10,663 nucleotides of DNA, from positions 1 through 10,663 of the forward strand of contig JAGAIK010000527.1 of assembly GCA_017626625.1 (NCBI GenBank), given 5' to 3'. Under the pieces are notes generated by a model, which worked only from the letters and a program-made list of their open reading frames with translations, was not told the origin of the DNA and did not search any database. The stretch comes from Roseburia sp. (GTDB lineage: Bacteria > Bacillota > Clostridia > Lachnospirales > Lachnospiraceae). Positions within the stretch are counted from its first letter, which is position 1, and each line of letters starts with the position of its first letter. The position numbers were made by a program, and so were the translations under genes. Positions 2,611 through 10,663 of this stretch are shown here, one piece after another.

Positions 2611-3699
2611 TTATCGCATCAAACAATCCAGCAACCTATCGTTATCATCTTTCTTCATAATACAAAACCGCACATACTTATTATCCAAAAACGGAAACGT
2701 CGAACAATCCCGTATCATCATCTTCTCCCGTATCGCCCGGTCAAACAAATCCTGAGATGTCACATCCTCCCGCAAAATCCTCACCAGCATAAAATTCCCG
2801 CTGGGCTCGTACACCTTAAAATCCGGATTCTTCTTCAACAAATCAAAAATCCGTGCCCGCTCCGAAGAAATCAGCCGCTTCGTCTGCTCAATATACTCCC
2901 TGTCCCGAAACATCGTCTCCCCCGCCACAACCGCAAGAGAATTAATCGTCCACGGATTTTTCCTGGTATTAATCGCCTTGATTAAATCCCGGTTCCCGGT
3001 CACCGCATACCCCAGCCTCAGCCCCGGCGCAGCAAAAAACTTGGAAGTTCCCCGGAGAATCACAATATTGTTATAGTAATTCGTCAGCGGAACAGCCGAA
3101 ATCTCCTCCATATCATCAGCAAACTCCACATAGGTTTCGTCCACCATCACATAGATATCATGCTGCTTGCAGGCATCTAAAATATGGCGCATTTCCCCCC
3201 GCTTGATAGAAGAGGAGGTAGGATTGTTGGGATTGCAGATAACCAGCAAATCAATACTTTCATTCAAGTGGGTAAGAAAATCCTCCACATTCAGCTTAAA
3301 ATTATCACTCTCCTTCAGGGGATAATAGAGCGTCGTGCCGCCCCCCAAAGCGATTTCCCGTTCATACTCCGAGTAGGTAGGACCAATCACCAAAGCTTTC
3401 TTCGGGTGCTCAATCTGAATAAACAGGGAAATCAGCTCCGTAGAACCGTTTCCCACAATCACATTTTCATATTCCGTCCCGCAGTAAGCGGCAATACATT
3501 TCCGCAGAGAGGTATACTCCCTGTCGGGATAGGTGGTGATGGCGTCGATTTTTTCCGATAAGGCACTGCGGAGCAGGGGAGATACCCCGAGAGGATTGAC
3601 GTTGGCGGAAAAACTGACGATTTCCTCTTTCTTGATGCCGTAGATTTCTTCTATTTTTTCTAAATCACTTCCGTGAAAATGGTCTTTGTGTTTTATCAT
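2611..3699 (-). CDS. PLP-dependent aminotransferase, HisC/CobD-like
   Basis: This 362-residue fold-type I PLP enzyme resembles histidinol-phosphate aminotransferase and the CobD threonine-phosphate decarboxylase. Visible landmarks are an N-terminal HGSDL and FSANVNPLG (CobD-like), NGSTELI (about 84-90), NPNNPT (156-161), VDETY with the PLP-ring Asp187 and Tyr190, the Schiff-base lysine K220 in GTSKFFAAPGLRLGY, and YVRF with the carboxylate-binding R345. I place the start at ATG 3697-3699 because AAGGAG (3706-3711) lies 6 bases upstream. An in-frame ATG at 3714 adds five residues but has no ribosome binding site. No histidine or cobalamin gene is nearby, so the substrate is unknown; the CobD-like N-terminus does not prove decarboxylase activity. 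It is monocistronic or read together with the toxin downstream, and is divergent from the DUF5717 operon. Confidence 0.88.
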   Translation of the reverse strand: MIKHKDHFHGSDLEKIEEIYGIKKEEIVSFSANVNPLGVSPLLRSALSEKIDAITTYPDREYTSLRKCIAAYCGTEYENVIVGNGSTELISLFIQIEHPKKALVIGPTYSEYEREIALGGGTTLYYPLKESDNFKLNVEDFLTHLNESIDLLVICNPNNPTSSSIKRGEMRHILDACKQHDIYVMVDETYVEFADDMEEISAVPLTNYYNNIVILRGTSKFFAAPGLRLGYAVTGNRDLIKAINTRKNPWTINSLAVVAGETMFRDREYIEQTKRLISSERARIFDLLKKNPDFKVYEPSGNFMLVRILREDVTSQDLFDRAIREKMMIRDCSTFPFLDNKYVRFCIMKKDDNDRLLDCLMR

Positions 3700-3727
3700 T
3701 GCGTACTCCTTCATTTTGGTTTATAAT
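3699..3727 (+). promoter_or_regulatory. Promoter of the DUF5717-led operon
   Basis: On the plus strand, TATAAT (3722-3727) lies 17 bp from a half-matching -35, TTGCGT (3699-3704). The -35 would sit over the first codons of the divergent aminotransferase. The predicted start near 3734 gives a leader of about 54 nt before the TTG start codon. The two divergent promoters overlap, so polymerase can occupy only one at a time. Confidence 0.45.
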
Positions 3728-3729
3728 CT

Positions 3730-3757
3730 ATTATAGTCATTGTAGATAAAAAAGCAA
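3730..3757 (-). promoter_or_regulatory. Promoter of the aminotransferase gene
   Basis: On the minus strand a perfect TATAAT -10 (3730-3735) is preceded, 16 bp away, by TTGCTT (3752-3757). The start would be near 3723, just ahead of the gene. The -10 is one arm of the palindrome TATAAT-CT-ATTATA (3722-3735) shared with the opposite promoter. Confidence 0.55.
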
Positions 3758-3787
3758 GAACGAGCATACGAAAAAGCAGGGGTCAAT

Positions 3788-6700
3788 TTGCGTAGACGGA
3801 TACAGCAGCTAGCCAGAGGAAAATTTGAACAGGAAAAGCCGTCGCCTGTCTTTTCCACAGACAAGGTAGACATCGAGGTATTAGAGGGAAAGGATTTTTC
3901 CGGTGATTTTGTCATCACCAGCACCAACCGGAACATGATGCGGGGGGTGATTTATTCCTCCAATCCGAGAATGGAATGTCTGACGCCCCAGTTTGAGGGG
4001 GAAGAGGTCAGGATACGGTATCAATTTCATAGCAATGGATTAGTCGAAGGGGATATTCAAAAAGGGGAGTTTAGTATCGTTATGAACCAGGGGGAATATA
4101 ACCTTTCTTTTGTTGCGTCCGTTTCCAGACTCTATGCGGATTCCTCCATCGGAAAAATAAAGAACCTCAATGATTTTACCAATCTGGCGAAGGAGAGCTT
4201 TGACGAGGCATACCGCCTGTTTTATTCCAAGAATTTTAAAAACATTTTAAAGCCGGAGGAGCAGAGGGAGCACCTTATCTATGAGGGACTCCGGGAGGGG
4301 AATCCCTCCGGTCAGAAAATAGAAGAATTTTTAACTGCCTGCCATAAGAAACCAAAGGTGATGGTGTCGCTGCCTGTGACGGAGGCGGAATTTTACGGGG
4401 TGACGGCGTCCCGCCGGGAAACCTTGGAATTAAAAAAAGAGCCCTGGGGCTATGCGGATATCCGGGTTACCTCCGATGCAGATTTTTTACAGCCGGAAAA
4501 ACAGCGCCTTGCGGAAGAGGATTTTATTGGAAGTGTCTGTACCTTTGACTATTATATTAAGGAAGAACTGCTGCACGCCGGAAAGAATTTCGGCAGGCTG
4601 CGGTTTGAACTGCCTACGGGAAATTTGGATTTTACCGTCTACGTCTCTGGGGCGGAGAAAAAGGAGACGCCGGAGAAATCCGTGCTGCGGGACAGCCAGG
4701 AATGCTTAGCCCGGTTGATGGAGCTGTATTTAGATTATCGTTTGAAACGCATTGTCACTGGGGCATGGGCGCGGGAATCCGGGCAAATCTTAGACCATCT
4801 CTCGGTATTGCTGCCGGAGGAGCCCATCTATCCGCTGATGAAGGCTCAGGCGCTTATTATCAACCGCCAGAAGCAGGAGGCGGCGTGGATTATGGAGGAT
4901 TTTAAGCGGCAGTGTATCCACAGGGATTCACCGGAGTGGGGGTATTACCTCTATCTCTGCACCCTGGTGCAGCGGGAGCCCTCCTACGTGGACAGGCTTA
5001 CGGCGGAAATCGAAGAGATTTTCCGGAAAAATCCCGACAGCTCCCTGCTGTTCTGGGTGCTGCTCTTTGTGAAAGAAGAGTATTGCGCAAACAGCGGGAA
5101 GCGGTTAAAAGCCATTGAAGAGCGAATGGCGTTAGAGCGGAGCCCTTATTTTTATTTGGAGGCGTATTACCTTATCTGGCAGGACCCTTATCTCTTGACA
5201 AAGTTAGAGGACTTTGAGCTTTCCATTTTAAATTGGGCGGTAAAACAGAATGTGCTGACGAAGGAGCTTGCGGCGCAGGTCATTGACATTCTTCCGGCAA
5301 AAAAAGAATTTTCCAAATCCCTCTACCGGATTTTGGAGAAATGCTACGAGGTAAGCCCGAAGGAGGAAGTTCTTGCGGCAGTCTGCGGCTATCTGATAAA
5401 GAGCCAGCGTTTCGGGCAGGAATATCACCGCTGGTATGCCCTTGGAATTAAGGAGGAAATCCGTCTTACCGGGCTGTATGAAGCCTATCTGATGTCTTTA
5501 GACGGCAGAACCGTGGTGGAAGTGCCGAAGGTCATCCAGATGTATTTCCAGTACGACAGCAAGATACCCTACCAGCAGAAAGCAGTGCTTTTTGTCAATA
5601 TCATTGCGGCGAAGGAAAAGGAGCCGGAGGTTTACCAGAAATATCAGAGAACCATGGAGCAGTTTGCCATGGAGCAGATAGAGGCAGGGCACATCAACGA
5701 TAATCTGGCGGTGATTTACGGGGAAATGTTAAAGAGCGGCACTTTAAATGAAGAACTGGGAAAACAGTTGTCTACCCTGCTGTTTACCCACAAATTCACC
5801 TGTTTTACCGACAGGGCGGCGAAGCTCTATGTTTACCAGAGGGAATTAAAAGAGCCCTTTGTGGCGAATGTCATGGGAGGAACGGCGTATTTTCCGGCAT
5901 ACACGGAAAATTACTGCCTTGTGATAGAGGACAGCTATGGCAACCGTTTTTGTGAAACCTTAGATTACACCGATGAGCCGCTGATGAATCCGGAGCTTTT
6001 TATCGACCGGTGCCAGAGGGCGGCAGCCACAGAGCGCTCTTATATGCTGTACCGTATGCGGGGAAAGACGGGGTATCAGGATTTTTCCGAGGAGGACGGA
6101 ACCTATTTTCTGCCGCTGCTCTCCGATGAAAAGGTGTCGGAGGACTATAAGGCAAAACTGCAGCCGGAGCTGGTGCGCTATTATCTGAAACGCGCCTACA
6201 GCCCCCTGGTGGGCAAATATCTGCTGGAGTTAGATTACGCCATTTCCACGGCGGAGAGCAGGCGTTTTCTCATAGAAGCGTTAGTGGAGGAACATCTTTA
6301 TGAGAAAGCCTATGGGTTAGTGCAGGTTTACGGCTATGATTATCTGGGAAACGGGGCGCAGGTGGCGCTTTGCAGCTATGCCATCGAGAAGGCGGGCTTT
6401 GAGGAAGATGATTTTCTTTCCGGTTTTGCGGAGAGTACCTTCCGGGCGGGAAAATATAATGACGTGATTCTGATTTACCTCTGCAAATATTACAACGGCG
6501 CCACCAAGACCATGGAAGAACTGTGGAAAGCGGCGGGGGCATTTGAAATTGATACCTTTGATTTAGAGGAACGGATTATCACCCAGATGCTGTATTCCAC
6601 CGATTATGTGGCATGTATTGATGAAATTTATGACAGCTATACCGCCGGGGGCGGCAGGGAGCTAGTCTGCATGGCGTATCTGTCCTATTTTGCCCACGCT

Positions 6701-7321
6701 TATCTGGTAAAGGACGCCGTGGTGCCGGAGCAGATTTTCTGGCAAATCACCATGCGCTACAGCCACGGGGCAGAGTTAAACGACGCCTGCAGATTAGGCT
6801 TGTTAAAATACCTTGCGGCGAAGGAGGAGCGGAAGCGGGAGCAGTCGGAGCTGGCGGATGAGCTGTTAGAGCTTTATACCGGAAAAAACATCTATTTTGC
6901 CTTTTACCGCCAGTTTGAAAAGAAGCTGATTTTAAAATACCATCTCTACGATAAATTTTTCGTGGAGTATCATGCGGAGCCAAAGAAACGCATCCTGCTC
7001 CATTACAGCTTTGACGGCGTCCATTACAGGGAGGAGGAGCTGCAGGAGGTTTATGATGGTATTTATGTGAAGCAGTTTATCCTGTTTTTCGGGGAAACGG
7101 TGCAGTATTATATGGTGGAAAACAGCGGCGGGGAGCCGAAGGTGACGGAGAGCGGCAGTATTTCGAACCAGAGCGTTCTGGAAAATGAGGGCGGCAGATA
7201 TGGAAAATTAAACGAGCTGCTGCTCCATGAGACGTTAGAGGAGACCGAGGCGCTGAAGCGGGAATTAAAGAATTATTACAAAATGAAACGTGTCACGGAG
7301 GAAGTTTTTGATTTGCTTTAG
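3788..7321 (+). CDS. DUF5717 family protein (large beta-domain and helical solenoid protein)
   Basis: This is a 1177-residue protein with no signal peptide and no membrane span, so probably cytoplasmic. From memory the N-terminal pattern (LARGKFEQEKP, then YSSNPRMECLTPQFEG and NQGEYNLSF) is that of DUF5717 in Lachnospiraceae; its function is unknown. Residues 25-115 and about 200-288 read as two Ig-like beta-sandwich domains. From about 298 to 680 the protein is a run of amphipathic helices with TPR/HEAT-like spacing. A third beta segment (about 687-735) interrupts it, more helices follow, and a last beta domain lies at about 1067-1121 before a charged helical tail. The architecture suggests a scaffold. 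The start is TTG, with AGGGG (3778-3782) five bases upstream; no ATG is available near the conserved N-terminus. The stop codon lies in the first of four 37-bp tandem repeats. It leads the operon with DUF5716, TPR and coiled-coil genes. Confidence 0.8.
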   Translation: MRRRIQQLARGKFEQEKPSPVFSTDKVDIEVLEGKDFSGDFVITSTNRNMMRGVIYSSNPRMECLTPQFEGEEVRIRYQFHSNGLVEGDIQKGEFSIVMNQGEYNLSFVASVSRLYADSSIGKIKNLNDFTNLAKESFDEAYRLFYSKNFKNILKPEEQREHLIYEGLREGNPSGQKIEEFLTACHKKPKVMVSLPVTEAEFYGVTASRRETLELKKEPWGYADIRVTSDADFLQPEKQRLAEEDFIGSVCTFDYYIKEELLHAGKNFGRLRFELPTGNLDFTVYVSGAEKKETPEKSVLRDSQECLARLMELYLDYRLKRIVTGAWARESGQILDHLSVLLPEEPIYPLMKAQALIINRQKQEAAWIMEDFKRQCIHRDSPEWGYYLYLCTLVQREPSYVDRLTAEIEEIFRKNPDSSLLFWVLLFVKEEYCANSGKRLKAIEERMALERSPYFYLEAYYLIWQDPYLLTKLEDFELSILNWAVKQNVLTKELAAQVIDILPAKKEFSKSLYRILEKCYEVSPKEEVLAAVCGYLIKSQRFGQEYHRWYALGIKEEIRLTGLYEAYLMSLDGRTVVEVPKVIQMYFQYDSKIPYQQKAVLFVNIIAAKEKEPEVYQKYQRTMEQFAMEQIEAGHINDNLAVIYGEMLKSGTLNEELGKQLSTLLFTHKFTCFTDRAAKLYVYQRELKEPFVANVMGGTAYFPAYTENYCLVIEDSYGNRFCETLDYTDEPLMNPELFIDRCQRAAATERSYMLYRMRGKTGYQDFSEEDGTYFLPLLSDEKVSEDYKAKLQPELVRYYLKRAYSPLVGKYLLELDYAISTAESRRFLIEALVEEHLYEKAYGLVQVYGYDYLGNGAQVALCSYAIEKAGFEEDDFLSGFAESTFRAGKYNDVILIYLCKYYNGATKTMEELWKAAGAFEIDTFDLEERIITQMLYSTDYVACIDEIYDSYTAGGGRELVCMAYLSYFAHAYLVKDAVVPEQIFWQITMRYSHGAELNDACRLGLLKYLAAKEERKREQSELADELLELYTGKNIYFAFYRQFEKKLILKYHLYDKFFVEYHAEPKKRILLHYSFDGVHYREEELQEVYDGIYVKQFILFFGETVQYYMVENSGGEPKVTESGSISNQSVLENEGGRYGKLNELLLHETLEETEALKRELKNYYKMKRVTEEVFDLL

Positions 7322-7431
7322 GAAACGTGTCACGGAGAAAGTTTTTGATTTGCTTTCGAAAACGTGTCACGGAGGAAGTTTTTGATTTGCTTTCGAAAAC
7401 GTGTCACGGAGGAAGTTAAGATTTGCTTTCG
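7288..7431 (+). repeat. Four tandem copies of a 37-bp unit at the DUF5717-DUF5716 junction
   Basis: Copies begin at 7288, 7325, 7362 and 7399, exactly 37 bp apart. Copy 1 is coding: it holds the last codons of the DUF5717 gene and its TAG stop. Copies 2 and 3 fill the gap and differ by one base; copy 4 is degenerate and one base shorter in its middle. Copies 1, 3 and 4 contain the ribosome binding site-like CACGGAGGAAGTT (copy 2 has GGAGAA), and every copy contains the near-palindrome CGTGTCACG. As 37 is not a multiple of 3, each copy lies in a new frame. The array looks like a duplication of the gene's 3' end. Confidence 0.9.
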
Positions 7432-7455
7432 GCAGATATGGATATGAGAGGGAAA

Positions 7456-8682
7456 ATGGGAAATAAATATTATCTTGGCATTGACATGGATGATGAAAAT
7501 GCCATCGTCAGTTTTTTTCAACCGAATATGAGAGAGCCGGAGACGGTGAGTACCGTGGCGGGAGGCGAGATTTTCCAGATTCCTCTGGTGGTGGCGAAAA
7601 AGCAGGGCTTAGGTCAGTGGTTCATCGGGGAAGAGGCGAAAAAGATTGCCTTGCAGCAGCGGGAAAACGAGGTGAAGCACCTTCTTTCCCGGGCGTTGGG
7701 AGAGGAAACCGTCTGTGTGGAGGGAGAGAATTTTTCTGCAAAGGAGCTGCTTGCCCTGTACCTGAAAAAATTAATTTATATGGCGGGCAGGCTGGGAAAT
7801 CCGCTGCAGCCGGATAAGGTGGTGATTTCCCTAGAGCGGCTTTCCAGAGAGGCGACGAAGCTGTTTTTGGGGATTGCAGGGGCGGCGGGACTTGCGGAAG
7901 ACCAGGTGACGTTGATTGACAGACGGGAAAGTTTCTATTATTTTATATATAACCAGAAAAATGAACTCTGGCTTCATGATGTCTGCCTCTTTGACTGCCG
8001 GGGAAATGATATCCACTGCTGTCTGGCACAGCGGAATATCCATACCACGCCCCAGTTGATTACCATGGCGGAGGACGTAAAACACATGGATTCCACCAAA
8101 AGGGACGAGGCATTTTTGCAGATTGCCACAGGGCAGTTCAAAGGTCATATCGTGTCGGCGGTGTATCTGGTGGGGGACGGATTTGACGGCGGCTGGTTAA
8201 AGGAGTCCTTAAATTTTATCTGCAGGGGCAGAAAAGCCTTTATGGGAAAGAACCTTTATTCCAAGGGTGCCTGCTATGCGGCGGCGGTGAAGGAGGGGAC
8301 GAAGGACTGGGCGTTTGTCTACATGGGTGACAATGAGATGAAGGTCAATGTCAGCTTAAAGGTTTCCAATCTGGGAAAGACAGAGCTTTATACGCTGATT
8401 ACTGCCGGGGATAACTGGTATGAGACGGTGGGGGAGTGTGAAGTCATTTTGGACGGCACGCCGGAGATTGATTTCTGGCTCCAGACCCCAAACAGCAGGG
8501 AGGCAAAGCTTGAGAAGATAGAGCTGGCGGATTTGCCGAAGCGCCCCCCAAAGACCACCAGGCTTCGGATTACAGCGAAACCCCTGTCCGACAGAGAAGT
8601 GCAGATTGTGATGAAGGATATGGGCTTCGGGGAGATTTTTAAAAGCTCCGATAAGAGCTGGGAGTACGTTATGGCACTGTAA
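7456..8682 (+). CDS. DUF5716 family protein, actin/Hsp70-like ATPase fold (degenerate)
   Basis: The protein has 408 residues from ATG 7456. I recognise it from memory as DUF5716, an uncharacterised family found beside DUF5717. The N-terminus YYLGIDMDDENAIVSFF matches the first phosphate-binding strand pair of actin/Hsp70 proteins, with D10 in the place of the conserved Asp but without the usual GTTNS. LFDCRGNDIHCCL (about 178-190) resembles the second phosphate motif. VYLVGDGFDGGW (236-247) followed by RGR-FMGKNLYSKGA (257-272) resembles the adenosine motif. The C-terminal 110 residues look beta-rich, like a substrate- or partner-binding domain. Start choice is uncertain: AGAGGG (7447-7452) is close to ATG 7456, which fits where the fold begins; TTG 7423 has GGAGGA from repeat copy 4 nine bases upstream and would add 11 residues. 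ATPase activity is inferred, and catalytic residues appear partly lost. Confidence 0.75.
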   Translation: MGNKYYLGIDMDDENAIVSFFQPNMREPETVSTVAGGEIFQIPLVVAKKQGLGQWFIGEEAKKIALQQRENEVKHLLSRALGEETVCVEGENFSAKELLALYLKKLIYMAGRLGNPLQPDKVVISLERLSREATKLFLGIAGAAGLAEDQVTLIDRRESFYYFIYNQKNELWLHDVCLFDCRGNDIHCCLAQRNIHTTPQLITMAEDVKHMDSTKRDEAFLQIATGQFKGHIVSAVYLVGDGFDGGWLKESLNFICRGRKAFMGKNLYSKGACYAAAVKEGTKDWAFVYMGDNEMKVNVSLKVSNLGKTELYTLITAGDNWYETVGECEVILDGTPEIDFWLQTPNSREAKLEKIELADLPKRPPKTTRLRITAKPLSDREVQIVMKDMGFGEIFKSSDKSWEYVMAL

Positions 8683-8694
8683 GAAAGGGGAAAT

Positions 8695-9534
8695 ATGGGC
8701 GAACTGATTTTATGCAGACAACAGATAGCGGCAATGCCCTATTACATAGAGACGGTTTCTTTGAATGTCTATTCCCTGGAGGAACTGTGCTATTATGTGC
8801 AGAACAATCTCTATCTCATGGAGCAGGATTTCATGGAGGAAGAGCTTTGCCGCTGGGTGGAAGAAGAACTAAAGCTAAAGGAAACGGCGCAGCAGTTGCG
8901 GGAGATAAGGGACACGGGAGGAACCCTCTCGGAATTTGTGCTCTGCCTGTTGTCCGCATCGGGCTATTTTAACGCCGGGGAGCTGAAAAGCATCCGGCAG
9001 ACGCTTCAGGAAATGGAGAATAAAACCGATTTCGAGTGCGGCAAGATAAGGGCGGACCGTTATATGGAAAACAAGAGATATATTTCCGCCGTTTATGAGT
9101 ACCGGAAGCTTTTAAAGGAAACCCTGGGACAGCCGGAAGAGGGAAAGATGGAAAATCCGGTGGTTGTGGGGGACGTATGGCACAATCTGGGGACGGCATA
9201 TGCCAGGCTGTTTCTCTTTGAACAGGCGGCGGGCTGTTACAGCCATGCCTATGAGTTAAACCATAACCCGAAATCCCTAAAGGAGTGTCTGTTTGCTTAC
9301 CGCTGTCTGAAGGATGAAAGAGGCTTTAAGCGCAAGGCGGCAGCCGGGTTTTTGAGTGAGGCGCAGGCAGCGGAGCTTGCCGGGGAATTGACCGAAGCAG
9401 GCAGGAGTCGGGAAATACAGGAGTTTGAAGCGGAGTTAGAGGAAGCCTTTGCAGTAAAAGAACAGGGATTAGAGAGGGCGGAGGAACTGTTGGCAGAATG
9501 GAAAGAAGAATACCGAAGGAACTGTAGAATATGA
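8695..9534 (+). CDS. TPR-like repeat protein of the DUF5717/DUF5716 operon
   Basis: A 279-residue soluble protein lacks a signal peptide or membrane span. It starts 12 bases after the DUF5716 stop at an ATG preceded by AAAGGGG (8684-8690). The first 110 residues are helical (MEEELCRWVEEEL and similar) and match no family I know by name. Residues about 114-148 (ADRYMENKRYISAVYEYRKLL) and about 158-192 (VWHNLGTAYARLFLFEQAAGC) are two tetratricopeptide-like repeats, the second with canonical W-x-x-L-G-x-A-Y spacing. TPRs bind partner proteins. The last 60 residues are a strongly charged Glu/Ala-rich helix, probably a coiled coil. The stop codon overlaps the next start (ATGA), implying translational coupling and fixed stoichiometry with the membrane protein. 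It may be an adaptor between the large scaffold and the membrane component; that is inference. Confidence 0.8.
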   Translation: MGELILCRQQIAAMPYYIETVSLNVYSLEELCYYVQNNLYLMEQDFMEEELCRWVEEELKLKETAQQLREIRDTGGTLSEFVLCLLSASGYFNAGELKSIRQTLQEMENKTDFECGKIRADRYMENKRYISAVYEYRKLLKETLGQPEEGKMENPVVVGDVWHNLGTAYARLFLFEQAAGCYSHAYELNHNPKSLKECLFAYRCLKDERGFKRKAAAGFLSEAQAAELAGELTEAGRSREIQEFEAELEEAFAVKEQGLERAEELLAEWKEEYRRNCRI

Positions 9535-10663
9535 AGAAAAAAGCACATTTTTGGGATAAATGGAAAAAGAAAGATACCTTTGAGGCAAAGTTTGAGGAAT
9601 TAGATGCCACGGTCCTAACGGAAAAGGACTACCGCAACAGCACCAGAATCGAGCAGTATGTGGTGGAGCGGTTAGAGCAGATGATTGATGTCACCAAAGA
9701 AATCGAGGATGAAAAGGCGGAGTACCGCATTGTCACCTCCTATCTGAATGACATTCACAAGATAGAAGAACTGCCGGAGGAGGAGCGGAAAAAAATCGAA
9801 GAGACTGCGGTGAACGTGGTGCAGCTAAACACGGCGCGGAATGGATTTTTAAATTCCACCAAAAAGCTGACAGACGCCCAGTTTGCCCAGCTAGAGCGGG
9901 AGGAAAAGGAAATTCCGGATGCCATCAGGCGTCTTGCCGCCAACGAGGCTTACCAGGATACGGTAAAGCAGGATATGAAATATTTAGAGCGGGAAAAATC
10001 GCGTTTCCTGCTGCACAAGGAATATTTAAGCAGCCAGCAGCATACGCTGAAACGTCTTTTGTATGTGATTACGGGAATTGTGATAGCGGCGCTGGTGGCA
10101 TTGGCGGCAGTGCAGGGATTTACCGGAATTGACGTATATTATGGTTTTCTGGTGCTGGTTTTCTTAGCCGTGGTCAGTGTCTGCGGTGTTTCCTTAAAAA
10201 TTATGAAAAACAATACGGAAATACAGGTGGCGGAGCAGAGCATTAACCGTGCCATTACGCTGCTTAATAAGGTGAAATTTAAGTATGTCAATATCACCAA
10301 TGCCATTGACTATGCCTGTGAAAAATACCATGTAAGGCGCTCGGCGGAATTAAACCAGATGTGGGAGTTTTATATGGAAGCGGTGAAGGAGCGGGAAAAA
10401 TACCAGCGTACCAGCGAGGATTTAGACTATTTCAACGGCAGGCTGGTGAGAATTCTGAACAACTACCAGCTCTATGACCCGCAGATATGGACAACGCAGG
10501 CGGCGGCTTTAGTAGACCACAAGGAGATGGTGGAAATCACCCATAATCTTGTGGCACGCAGGCAGAAGCTCCGGGATAGAATGGAGTATAACCTCAACGT
10601 GATTCAGGAGCAGAAGAAGGAGGCGGAACAGCTTCTTGACAAAGTCGGGGATAAGAAGCCCCA
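9531..10663 (+). CDS. Coiled-coil protein with two membrane spans, 3' end beyond window
   Basis: The ATG at 9531 overlaps the preceding TGA by 4 bases (ATGA), and the frame stays open to the window end, so 377 residues are visible and the C-terminus is missing. Residues 1-170 are highly charged and helical (long Glu/Lys runs; about 45-165 probably coiled coil). Two adjacent hydrophobic segments, about 176-197 and 202-224, form a membrane hairpin with only a few residues (TGID) outside. Residues 225-377 are again cytoplasmic and helical, with a second coiled-coil region. By the positive-inside rule (KR before the first span, K-rich after the second) both long arms face the cytoplasm. No enzyme motif is visible and I do not recognise a named family. 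It is the likely membrane anchor for the DUF5716/DUF5717 complex. No separate ribosome binding site beyond a weak AAGGA (9516-9520) is seen, which fits translational coupling. Confidence 0.82.
   Translation, partial: MKKKAHFWDKWKKKDTFEAKFEELDATVLTEKDYRNSTRIEQYVVERLEQMIDVTKEIEDEKAEYRIVTSYLNDIHKIEELPEEERKKIEETAVNVVQLNTARNGFLNSTKKLTDAQFAQLEREEKEIPDAIRRLAANEAYQDTVKQDMKYLEREKSRFLLHKEYLSSQQHTLKRLLYVITGIVIAALVALAAVQGFTGIDVYYGFLVLVFLAVVSVCGVSLKIMKNNTEIQVAEQSINRAITLLNKVKFKYVNITNAIDYACEKYHVRRSAELNQMWEFYMEAVKEREKYQRTSEDLDYFNGRLVRILNNYQLYDPQIWTTQAAALVDHKEMVEITHNLVARRQKLRDRMEYNLNVIQEQKKEAEQLLDKVGDKKP

Follow-up and report, generated by a model that had tools for sequence, protein, structure and literature searches.

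A DUF5717–DUF5716 operon of Lachnospiraceae as a candidate reduced version of a multi-Hsp70 gene cluster

Background

By analogy, the closest case of how the operon examined here may work is Ssz1 of the fungal ribosome-associated complex, an atypical Hsp70 that binds ATP and works with the J-protein Zuo1 (PMC7083937), and among published systems the most similar set of parts is that of the HSP70/GrpE theme in the GAP1-N2 systems (PMC7159879, section 29). The operon lies on a 10,663-nucleotide stretch of DNA from Roseburia sp. (GenBank assembly GCA_017626625.1, contig JAGAIK010000527.1), hereafter the window, which is one whole contig (G000:C357) of a genome that is 81% complete and in 723 contigs; it encodes four proteins, here called A to D, of which A and B belong to the Pfam families DUF5717 and DUF5716. 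Pfam assigns neither family a function, as a preliminary description of this DNA had stated, and the Pfam descriptions mention neither a kinship to Hsp70 nor the large gene cluster reported below; NCBIfam has no model for any of the four proteins. No paper on this gene set was found in the literature searched, where the sole paper to name DUF5716 is unrelated.

We hold with moderate confidence that in Lachnospiraceae, a major gut family, A, B, C, and in some genomes D are a reduced form of a larger multi-Hsp70 cluster, in which B has no ATP cycle and serves as a static binding module on A. More tentatively, we propose that a multi-Hsp70 machine once driven by ATP became, across the whole family, a near-universal core complex that works without ATP of its own, with DnaK perhaps providing power in trans; if true, bacteria would have evolved a counterpart of Ssz1 independently, and gut Lachnospiraceae would possess a core chaperone assembly that has gone unrecognized. 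The reduced-cluster interpretation would give two families of unassigned function a place and make that function testable. For biochemistry, intact Hsp70s, a GrpE-domain protein, and a VWA-fused Hsp70 are available from the full cluster of the relatives, and Lachnospiraceae would provide a clean natural case of an Hsp70 kept despite a lost ATP cycle.

Gene content of the window

Four open reading frames (ORFs) lie on the + strand in the order A, B, C, D:

3788..7321, + strand: A, DUF5717 protein, 1177 aa, TTG start (Pfam, AlphaFold2 model, fold comparison)
7444..8682, + strand: B, DUF5716 protein and pseudo-Hsp70, 412 aa from its best start, ATG 7444 (Pfam, motif table, IIB span, fold of a B-C fusion)
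8695..9534, + strand: C, N-terminal helical part and TPR-like repeats, 279 aa (TPR_2 match at 1.4e-5, below the cut-off; B-C fusions; fusion model)
9531..10663, + strand: D, putative two-span membrane protein with long helical arms, 377 of about 393 aa, truncated by the contig end (ORF, full-length copy in locus L022, hydropathy)
7286..7431, strand not applicable: 37-bp unit in four copies, which repeats 3'-terminal sequence of A within the gap before B

The preliminary description had proposed a tightly spaced four-gene operon, which these ORFs bear out, as do the 12-bp gap between B and C and the ATGA overlap of C and D. Between A and B there are about 120 bp, since the four-copy 37-bp unit duplicates the 3' end of A there, and for B the start at ATG 7444 is preferred, as in the near relative L022, with TTG 7423 as the alternative. 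L022 has no 37-bp array at this position and carries in its place (5672-5751) an inverted repeat around ctgtcc/ggacag.

Gene order was compared across 44 neighborhood rows, namely the window, three records (L022 to L024), and 40 of the 97 B-bearing genomes reported below (L025 to L064), which we picked for the length of their contigs and for spread. A, B, and C are contiguous, in this order, and on one strand in 43 of the 44, so the co-occurrence that had been suggested as a check across the family holds for these three genes, with D excepted. The flanking genes vary (valS, folC, purine genes, and rarA, all named by eye from their first residues) and look like housekeeping genes. In L024, a Roseburia inulinivorans draft, the A-B-C order is kept and the frames are broken; its positions 3275-10079 hold A, B, and possibly D in broken frames, through sequencing error or decay.

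Protein A matches DUF5717_N (PF18984; 1.4e-280, 933.5 bits) and DUF5717 (PF18983; 3.1e-100, 335.7 bits) against a cut-off of 25 bits, and B matches DUF5716_C (PF18980; 1.3e-105) with 353 bits against a cut-off of 34.7; the labels given to both earlier, DUF5717-like and DUF5716-like, can thus be read as membership. In its AlphaFold2 model (predicted local distance difference test, pLDDT, 87.9; predicted template modeling score, pTM, 0.64), A is predicted to contain a PapD/MSP-like domain at about 16-116, a second beta-sandwich at about 189-289, an alpha-solenoid into which a beta element is inserted (667-731), and, toward the C-terminus, another beta domain (1056-1126). A simple hydropathy scan found no membrane spans in A, B, or C.

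Protein B and the loss of its catalytic parts

The actin/Hsp70 fold that had been claimed for B is upheld by its sequence match to DnaK among solved structures (E 2.9e-5) and by the model of a natural B-C fusion, P0126 (mean pLDDT 89.6, pTM 0.74), which is predicted to align with DnaK and Ssz1 across the nucleotide-binding domain (NBD) and the beta part of the substrate-binding domain (SBD-beta). All 50 fold matches listed for P0126 are of the Hsp70, Hsp110, or Ssz1 type, and the Pfam scan gave no MreB match in B. The order of domains that marks the Hsp70 superfamily, an actin-type NBD followed by SBD-beta, is present in B, where the NBD is without most of subdomain IIB, the second domain is SBD-beta-like, and there is no alpha lid.

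Six catalytic positions, which we take to be D8, T11, K70, E171, D194, and T199 in E. coli DnaK numbering, were compared in an alignment of 39 B proteins (all neighborhood rows minus four fusions and L024), 4 DnaK proteins, and the Hsp70 paralogs H1 to H4 of the larger cluster (16, 15, 15, and 9 sequences, respectively). Every DnaK, H1, H3, and H4 row keeps all six residues, and the H2 and B rows keep zero to three, with two kept in the B of the window. The stretch from D194 to G341, which holds IIB, measures 143-181 residues in H1, H3, H4, and DnaK and 126-152 in H2 (139 in that of L078), against 59-78 in B (60 in the window). DnaK was the named reference for H1 to H4 and B, rather than HscA or a named HscC, which with DnaK make up the three prokaryotic Hsp70 types treated in a review (PMC8215388). 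Compared with an ATP-driven Hsp70 chaperone, B appears from its sequence to lack the full set of catalytic residues, the phosphate loops, and most of IIB; it keeps the Hsp70 fold, yet is very unlikely to be an ATPase, and we infer that it no longer runs an ATP cycle. Exchange factors are described as binding the NBD and rotating IIB (PMC10825016), so the cut in IIB fits the absence of a gene for a GrpE-domain protein from the operon.

In the preliminary description, B was ATPase-like and, as a hypothesis, part of an active machine, with a scaffold and a membrane hairpin, of a cytoskeletal, cell-shape, or quality-control kind. The Hsp70/actin fold of B, the conserved adjacency of A, B, and C, and the intact Hsp70s that adjoin A in relatives agree with such a machine, but with zero to three of the six catalytic residues left in all 39 B proteins, most of the IIB span gone, and the proposed anchor D missing from more than half of the genomes, we regard it as highly improbable; what stands of that description is the fold and the adjacency, and what falls is the ATPase activity and the place of D as a fixed member. 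It is unlikely, though less so, that B holds nucleotide permanently as a structural part, in the manner of Ssz1, and that the complex is nucleotide-dependent without turnover. The overall NBD fold is retained, the equivalent of D8 is kept in 32 of the 39 sequences, that of D194 in 22, and the first glycine of the adenosine motif in all 39, and Ssz1, which binds ATP and does not hydrolyze it (PMC7083937), is among the best fold matches; on the other side, B has lost its phosphate loops and also the IIB span, a part of the NBD that helps to form the nucleotide cleft.

The larger cluster in other families of the order

Twenty loci were fetched, of which the 19 from other families of the order were read and one (L093) was excluded as Lachnospiraceae. 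A, as one or two genes, mostly stands first in these clusters, which further comprise H1, a protein here called X, H2, H3, H4 fused to a VWA domain, C, and sometimes D. A is two genes in 14 of the 19 loci and one gene in five (L081, L090, L091, L092, L095), so a fused A is not peculiar to Lachnospiraceae. The run A-H1-X-H2-H3 is contiguous in 14 of the 19 (L078-L082, L084-L086, L088, L090, L091, L094-L096), with gene numbering free of gaps in L078-L082; it is interrupted in L087, runs into a contig edge in L089, and is scattered in L083 and L097, while in L092 H1 was masked by an opposite frame in the ORF calls and was recovered by an Hsp70 search. Across ten downstream stretches, H4 is one frame of 691-725 aa in eight, is in two pieces in L098, and is also present in L104; C was recognized in nine, with an unmatched 308-aa frame in its place in L104, and D in four. 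L098 (16205-19384), which belongs with L078 in genome G399, has both H4 and C split into two frames each, with the rest of the cluster intact.

Examples of Pfam matches are HSP70 at 5e-76 for H1, DUF5716_C at 1.5e-26 and HSP70 at 1.4e-17 for H2, HSP70 at 7e-63 for H3, and HSP70 at 4.5e-96 with VWA at 1.9e-10 for H4. A C-terminal GrpE domain is present in 11 of the 12 X proteins tested, the exception at E 0.001 being that of L086. When whole genomes were searched with PF00012, H1, H3, and H4 were present in seven of seven cluster genomes and in six of six further genomes, several of the latter carrying them at two or three places; H2 was often missed by PF00012 and was found with a B profile. 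At least 120 relatives of H4 are listed from 8000 scored candidates, all with HSP70 plus a VWA family, including Epulopiscium, Defluviitaleaceae, and Anaeropeptidivorans. The H4 of L099 (14995-17073, - strand) has this common architecture of an Hsp70 with a C-terminal VWA domain, and one listed relative comes from a metagenome bin labeled Turicibacter, outside the order.

The cluster resembles the DnaK-DnaJ-GrpE system in the 6/6 catalytic residues of H1, H3, and H4 and in the GrpE domain that ends X, and differs from it in having four Hsp70 paralogs, a VWA fusion, and no J-domain seen in the Pfam-scanned cluster proteins; Lachnospiraceae retain just the dead paralog. It also resembles the GAP1-N2 conflict or defense systems, whose second theme, as set out in PMC7159879, combines HSP70 and GrpE with an extra Hsp70 without a peptide-binding domain and proteins joining a beta-sandwich (FNIII) to DnaJ or TPR repeats, with VWA domains in related themes. 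In favor of membership in such a system, beyond these similar parts, H3 and H4 weakly match the PADLOC candidate model PDC-M61B (8.7e-11 and 4.4e-7). Those systems, however, are built on a GTPase with GAP1 and occur in several phyla (PMC7159879), whereas no GTPase or effector domain was seen among the Pfam-scanned cluster proteins (no aimed GTPase search was made, and some neighbors were unscanned) and the A cluster is confined to one order in the samples searched; A, B, and C of the window and D of L022 have no PADLOC match at E 0.01, and the single copy in 97 of 100 genomes is unlike patchy defense systems. We give the defense reading very little credence.

Direction of change

A quick tree rooted on DnaK was built from 64 rows, including 18 of the 39 B sequences and leaving out the H rows of five loci, with support from the Shimodaira-Hasegawa-like approximate likelihood ratio test (SH-aLRT) and no bootstrap. 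H2 and B form one clade (100), which H3 joins (100); B itself is one clade (99) whose sister is the H2 of L078 (97). In the unrooted tree of A, L078 likewise stands next to Lachnospiraceae (100). With B placed inside the dead H2 type, reduction is the simplest account of the Lachnospiraceae operon, and since the cluster of L078 is complete, loss requires less than gain. The Lachnospiraceae loci are missing H1, X, H3, and H4 and have kept the dead Hsp70 as B. The other full-length Hsp70 frames in 60 Lachnospiraceae genomes score as DnaK or as a second, DnaK-nearer type, and four frames of 250-311 bits gave at most 204 bits with the H1, H3, and H4 profiles, against at least 892 for true members, in a test that left out contig-end fragments (e.g., in G027, G033, G007, and G002).

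Were the small operon ancestral, the other families would have expanded it with extra Hsp70s, and the A-only tree, being unrooted, is silent on direction. We consider this very unlikely, because B falls inside H2 and H2 plus B is sister to a catalytically intact Hsp70, descent of a dead Hsp70 from a live one is the simpler assumption, and C and D occur in the large clusters too.

Several points weigh against reduction and the loss of the ATP cycle. The quick tree flags long branches (H2_L091 at 4.38, B_L044 at 1.94, H2_L092, and H2_L090) and odd composition, several H2 rows among the latter, and its support is SH-aLRT only, from fewer than half of the B sequences. In H2 and B the alignment is poor around K70, which makes this column the least sure, and the NBD comparison uses the fused homolog P0126 rather than the B of the window. 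As Ssz1 binds ATP without hydrolysis (PMC7083937), lost catalysis in B is compatible with nucleotide binding. Lastly, in one Lachnospiraceae genome (G481, L093) the N-terminal beta domains are missing from A. Upstream of that A lies a metK-like gene, named by eye.

Conservation in Lachnospiraceae and taxonomic spread

In a sample of 100 Lachnospiraceae genomes, drawn evenly and including that of the window, DUF5716_C is present in 97, in single copy and with no internal stops, and in none of 14 control genomes. Two of the three genomes without B (G022 and G075) are also without A, and in the third (G081) A sits at the end of a contig, where B could simply have escaped assembly. G022 and G075 are 93% and 98% complete, and G075 shows two strong DnaK-like frames.

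PF18980 matched 4 of 299 genomes sampled from the phylum, all Lachnospiraceae, but other families of the order are almost absent from that sample; it matched alongside PF18983, the C-terminal family of A, in 13 of 293 genomes of the class, all Lachnospiraceae. PF18984, the N-terminal family, was found in 68 of 147 genomes of the order (19 Lachnospiraceae and 49 of other families); with 79 of the 147 lacking a match, the distribution of A within the order is truly patchy.

This conservation bears on the notion that B is a decaying relic and that only A and C matter. Its lost catalytic residues and lobe and the long branches of B and H2 could be taken as signs of decay, but the open frame in 97 of 100 genomes, five residues invariant across 59 aligned sequences (W336, D403, G405, F406, and G407), and the repeated fusion of B to C leave this notion scarcely credible.

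Partners of B and a proposed role

Protein C has one TPR match (TPR_2, just below the curated cut-off), and its part of the B-C fusion model is predicted to be helical. B and C are a single protein in L045, L051, L052, and L053, and since L045 and L051 fall in separate clades of the A tree, the fusion has at least two independent origins on that tree. A database search with the fusion as query returned 60 proteins, 30 of them of at least 660 aa, a length that the query favors. The fusions suggest that C is the likely partner of B.

Protein D has only sub-threshold Pfam matches and, by the hydropathy scan, two hydrophobic spans, residues 176-194 and 206-224, flanked by long arms; the full-length copy in L022, whose B is 97% identical to that of the window, has 393 aa. 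D lies 3' of C in 19 of the 44 rows and was found in 42 of the 100 genomes (E < 1e-60), with weak matches only in two more; 41 of the 42 have it on the contig of B, about 1 kb past B, which leaves room for C, and one (G076) has it on another contig. The earlier idea that D is a fixed member of the complex fails on this count, and the operon is a three-gene core (A, B, C) with an optional membrane tether.

On the reduced-cluster interpretation, the set carried by relatives, with three catalytically intact Hsp70s (H1, H3, H4), a dead H2, X, A, C, and sometimes D, is the larger form, from which Lachnospiraceae would have lost H1, X, H3, and H4 and kept the dead Hsp70 with its IIB-bearing NBD span excised. 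A, B, and C may form a standing complex in which B, with its fixed partner C, sits on the PapD-like/solenoid scaffold A and offers its SBD-beta-like domain or an NBD surface to client or partner proteins without a nucleotide cycle; D, where present, would tie the assembly to the membrane. In relatives, H1, H3, and H4 would supply the ATP cycle together with X, and in Lachnospiraceae this cycle would be either not needed or supplied by DnaK. B may hand clients to, or tune, the housekeeping DnaK, much as Ssz1 acts beside Ssb in fungi. B differs from Ssz1 in being without most of IIB, in its partners (A, C, and D, with no J-domain seen in the scanned proteins), and in an identity of about 15% in the fold alignment, and as B falls within the H2 group from its own bacterial order, in a tree that includes no Ssz1, any likeness to Ssz1 is more likely convergent.

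Neighboring genes

The preliminary description had expected that more genes might follow the window end; the window ends with its contig, and in two of the 44 rows (L022 and L023) an antiporter-like gene, named by eye, does follow D. Upstream, an aminotransferase of the CobD/HisC kind (2611-3714, - strand; TIGR01140, 285.7 bits against a cut-off of 290.55) lies 73 bp from A and is divergent from it, and its cluster occurs in 20 of the 44 rows.
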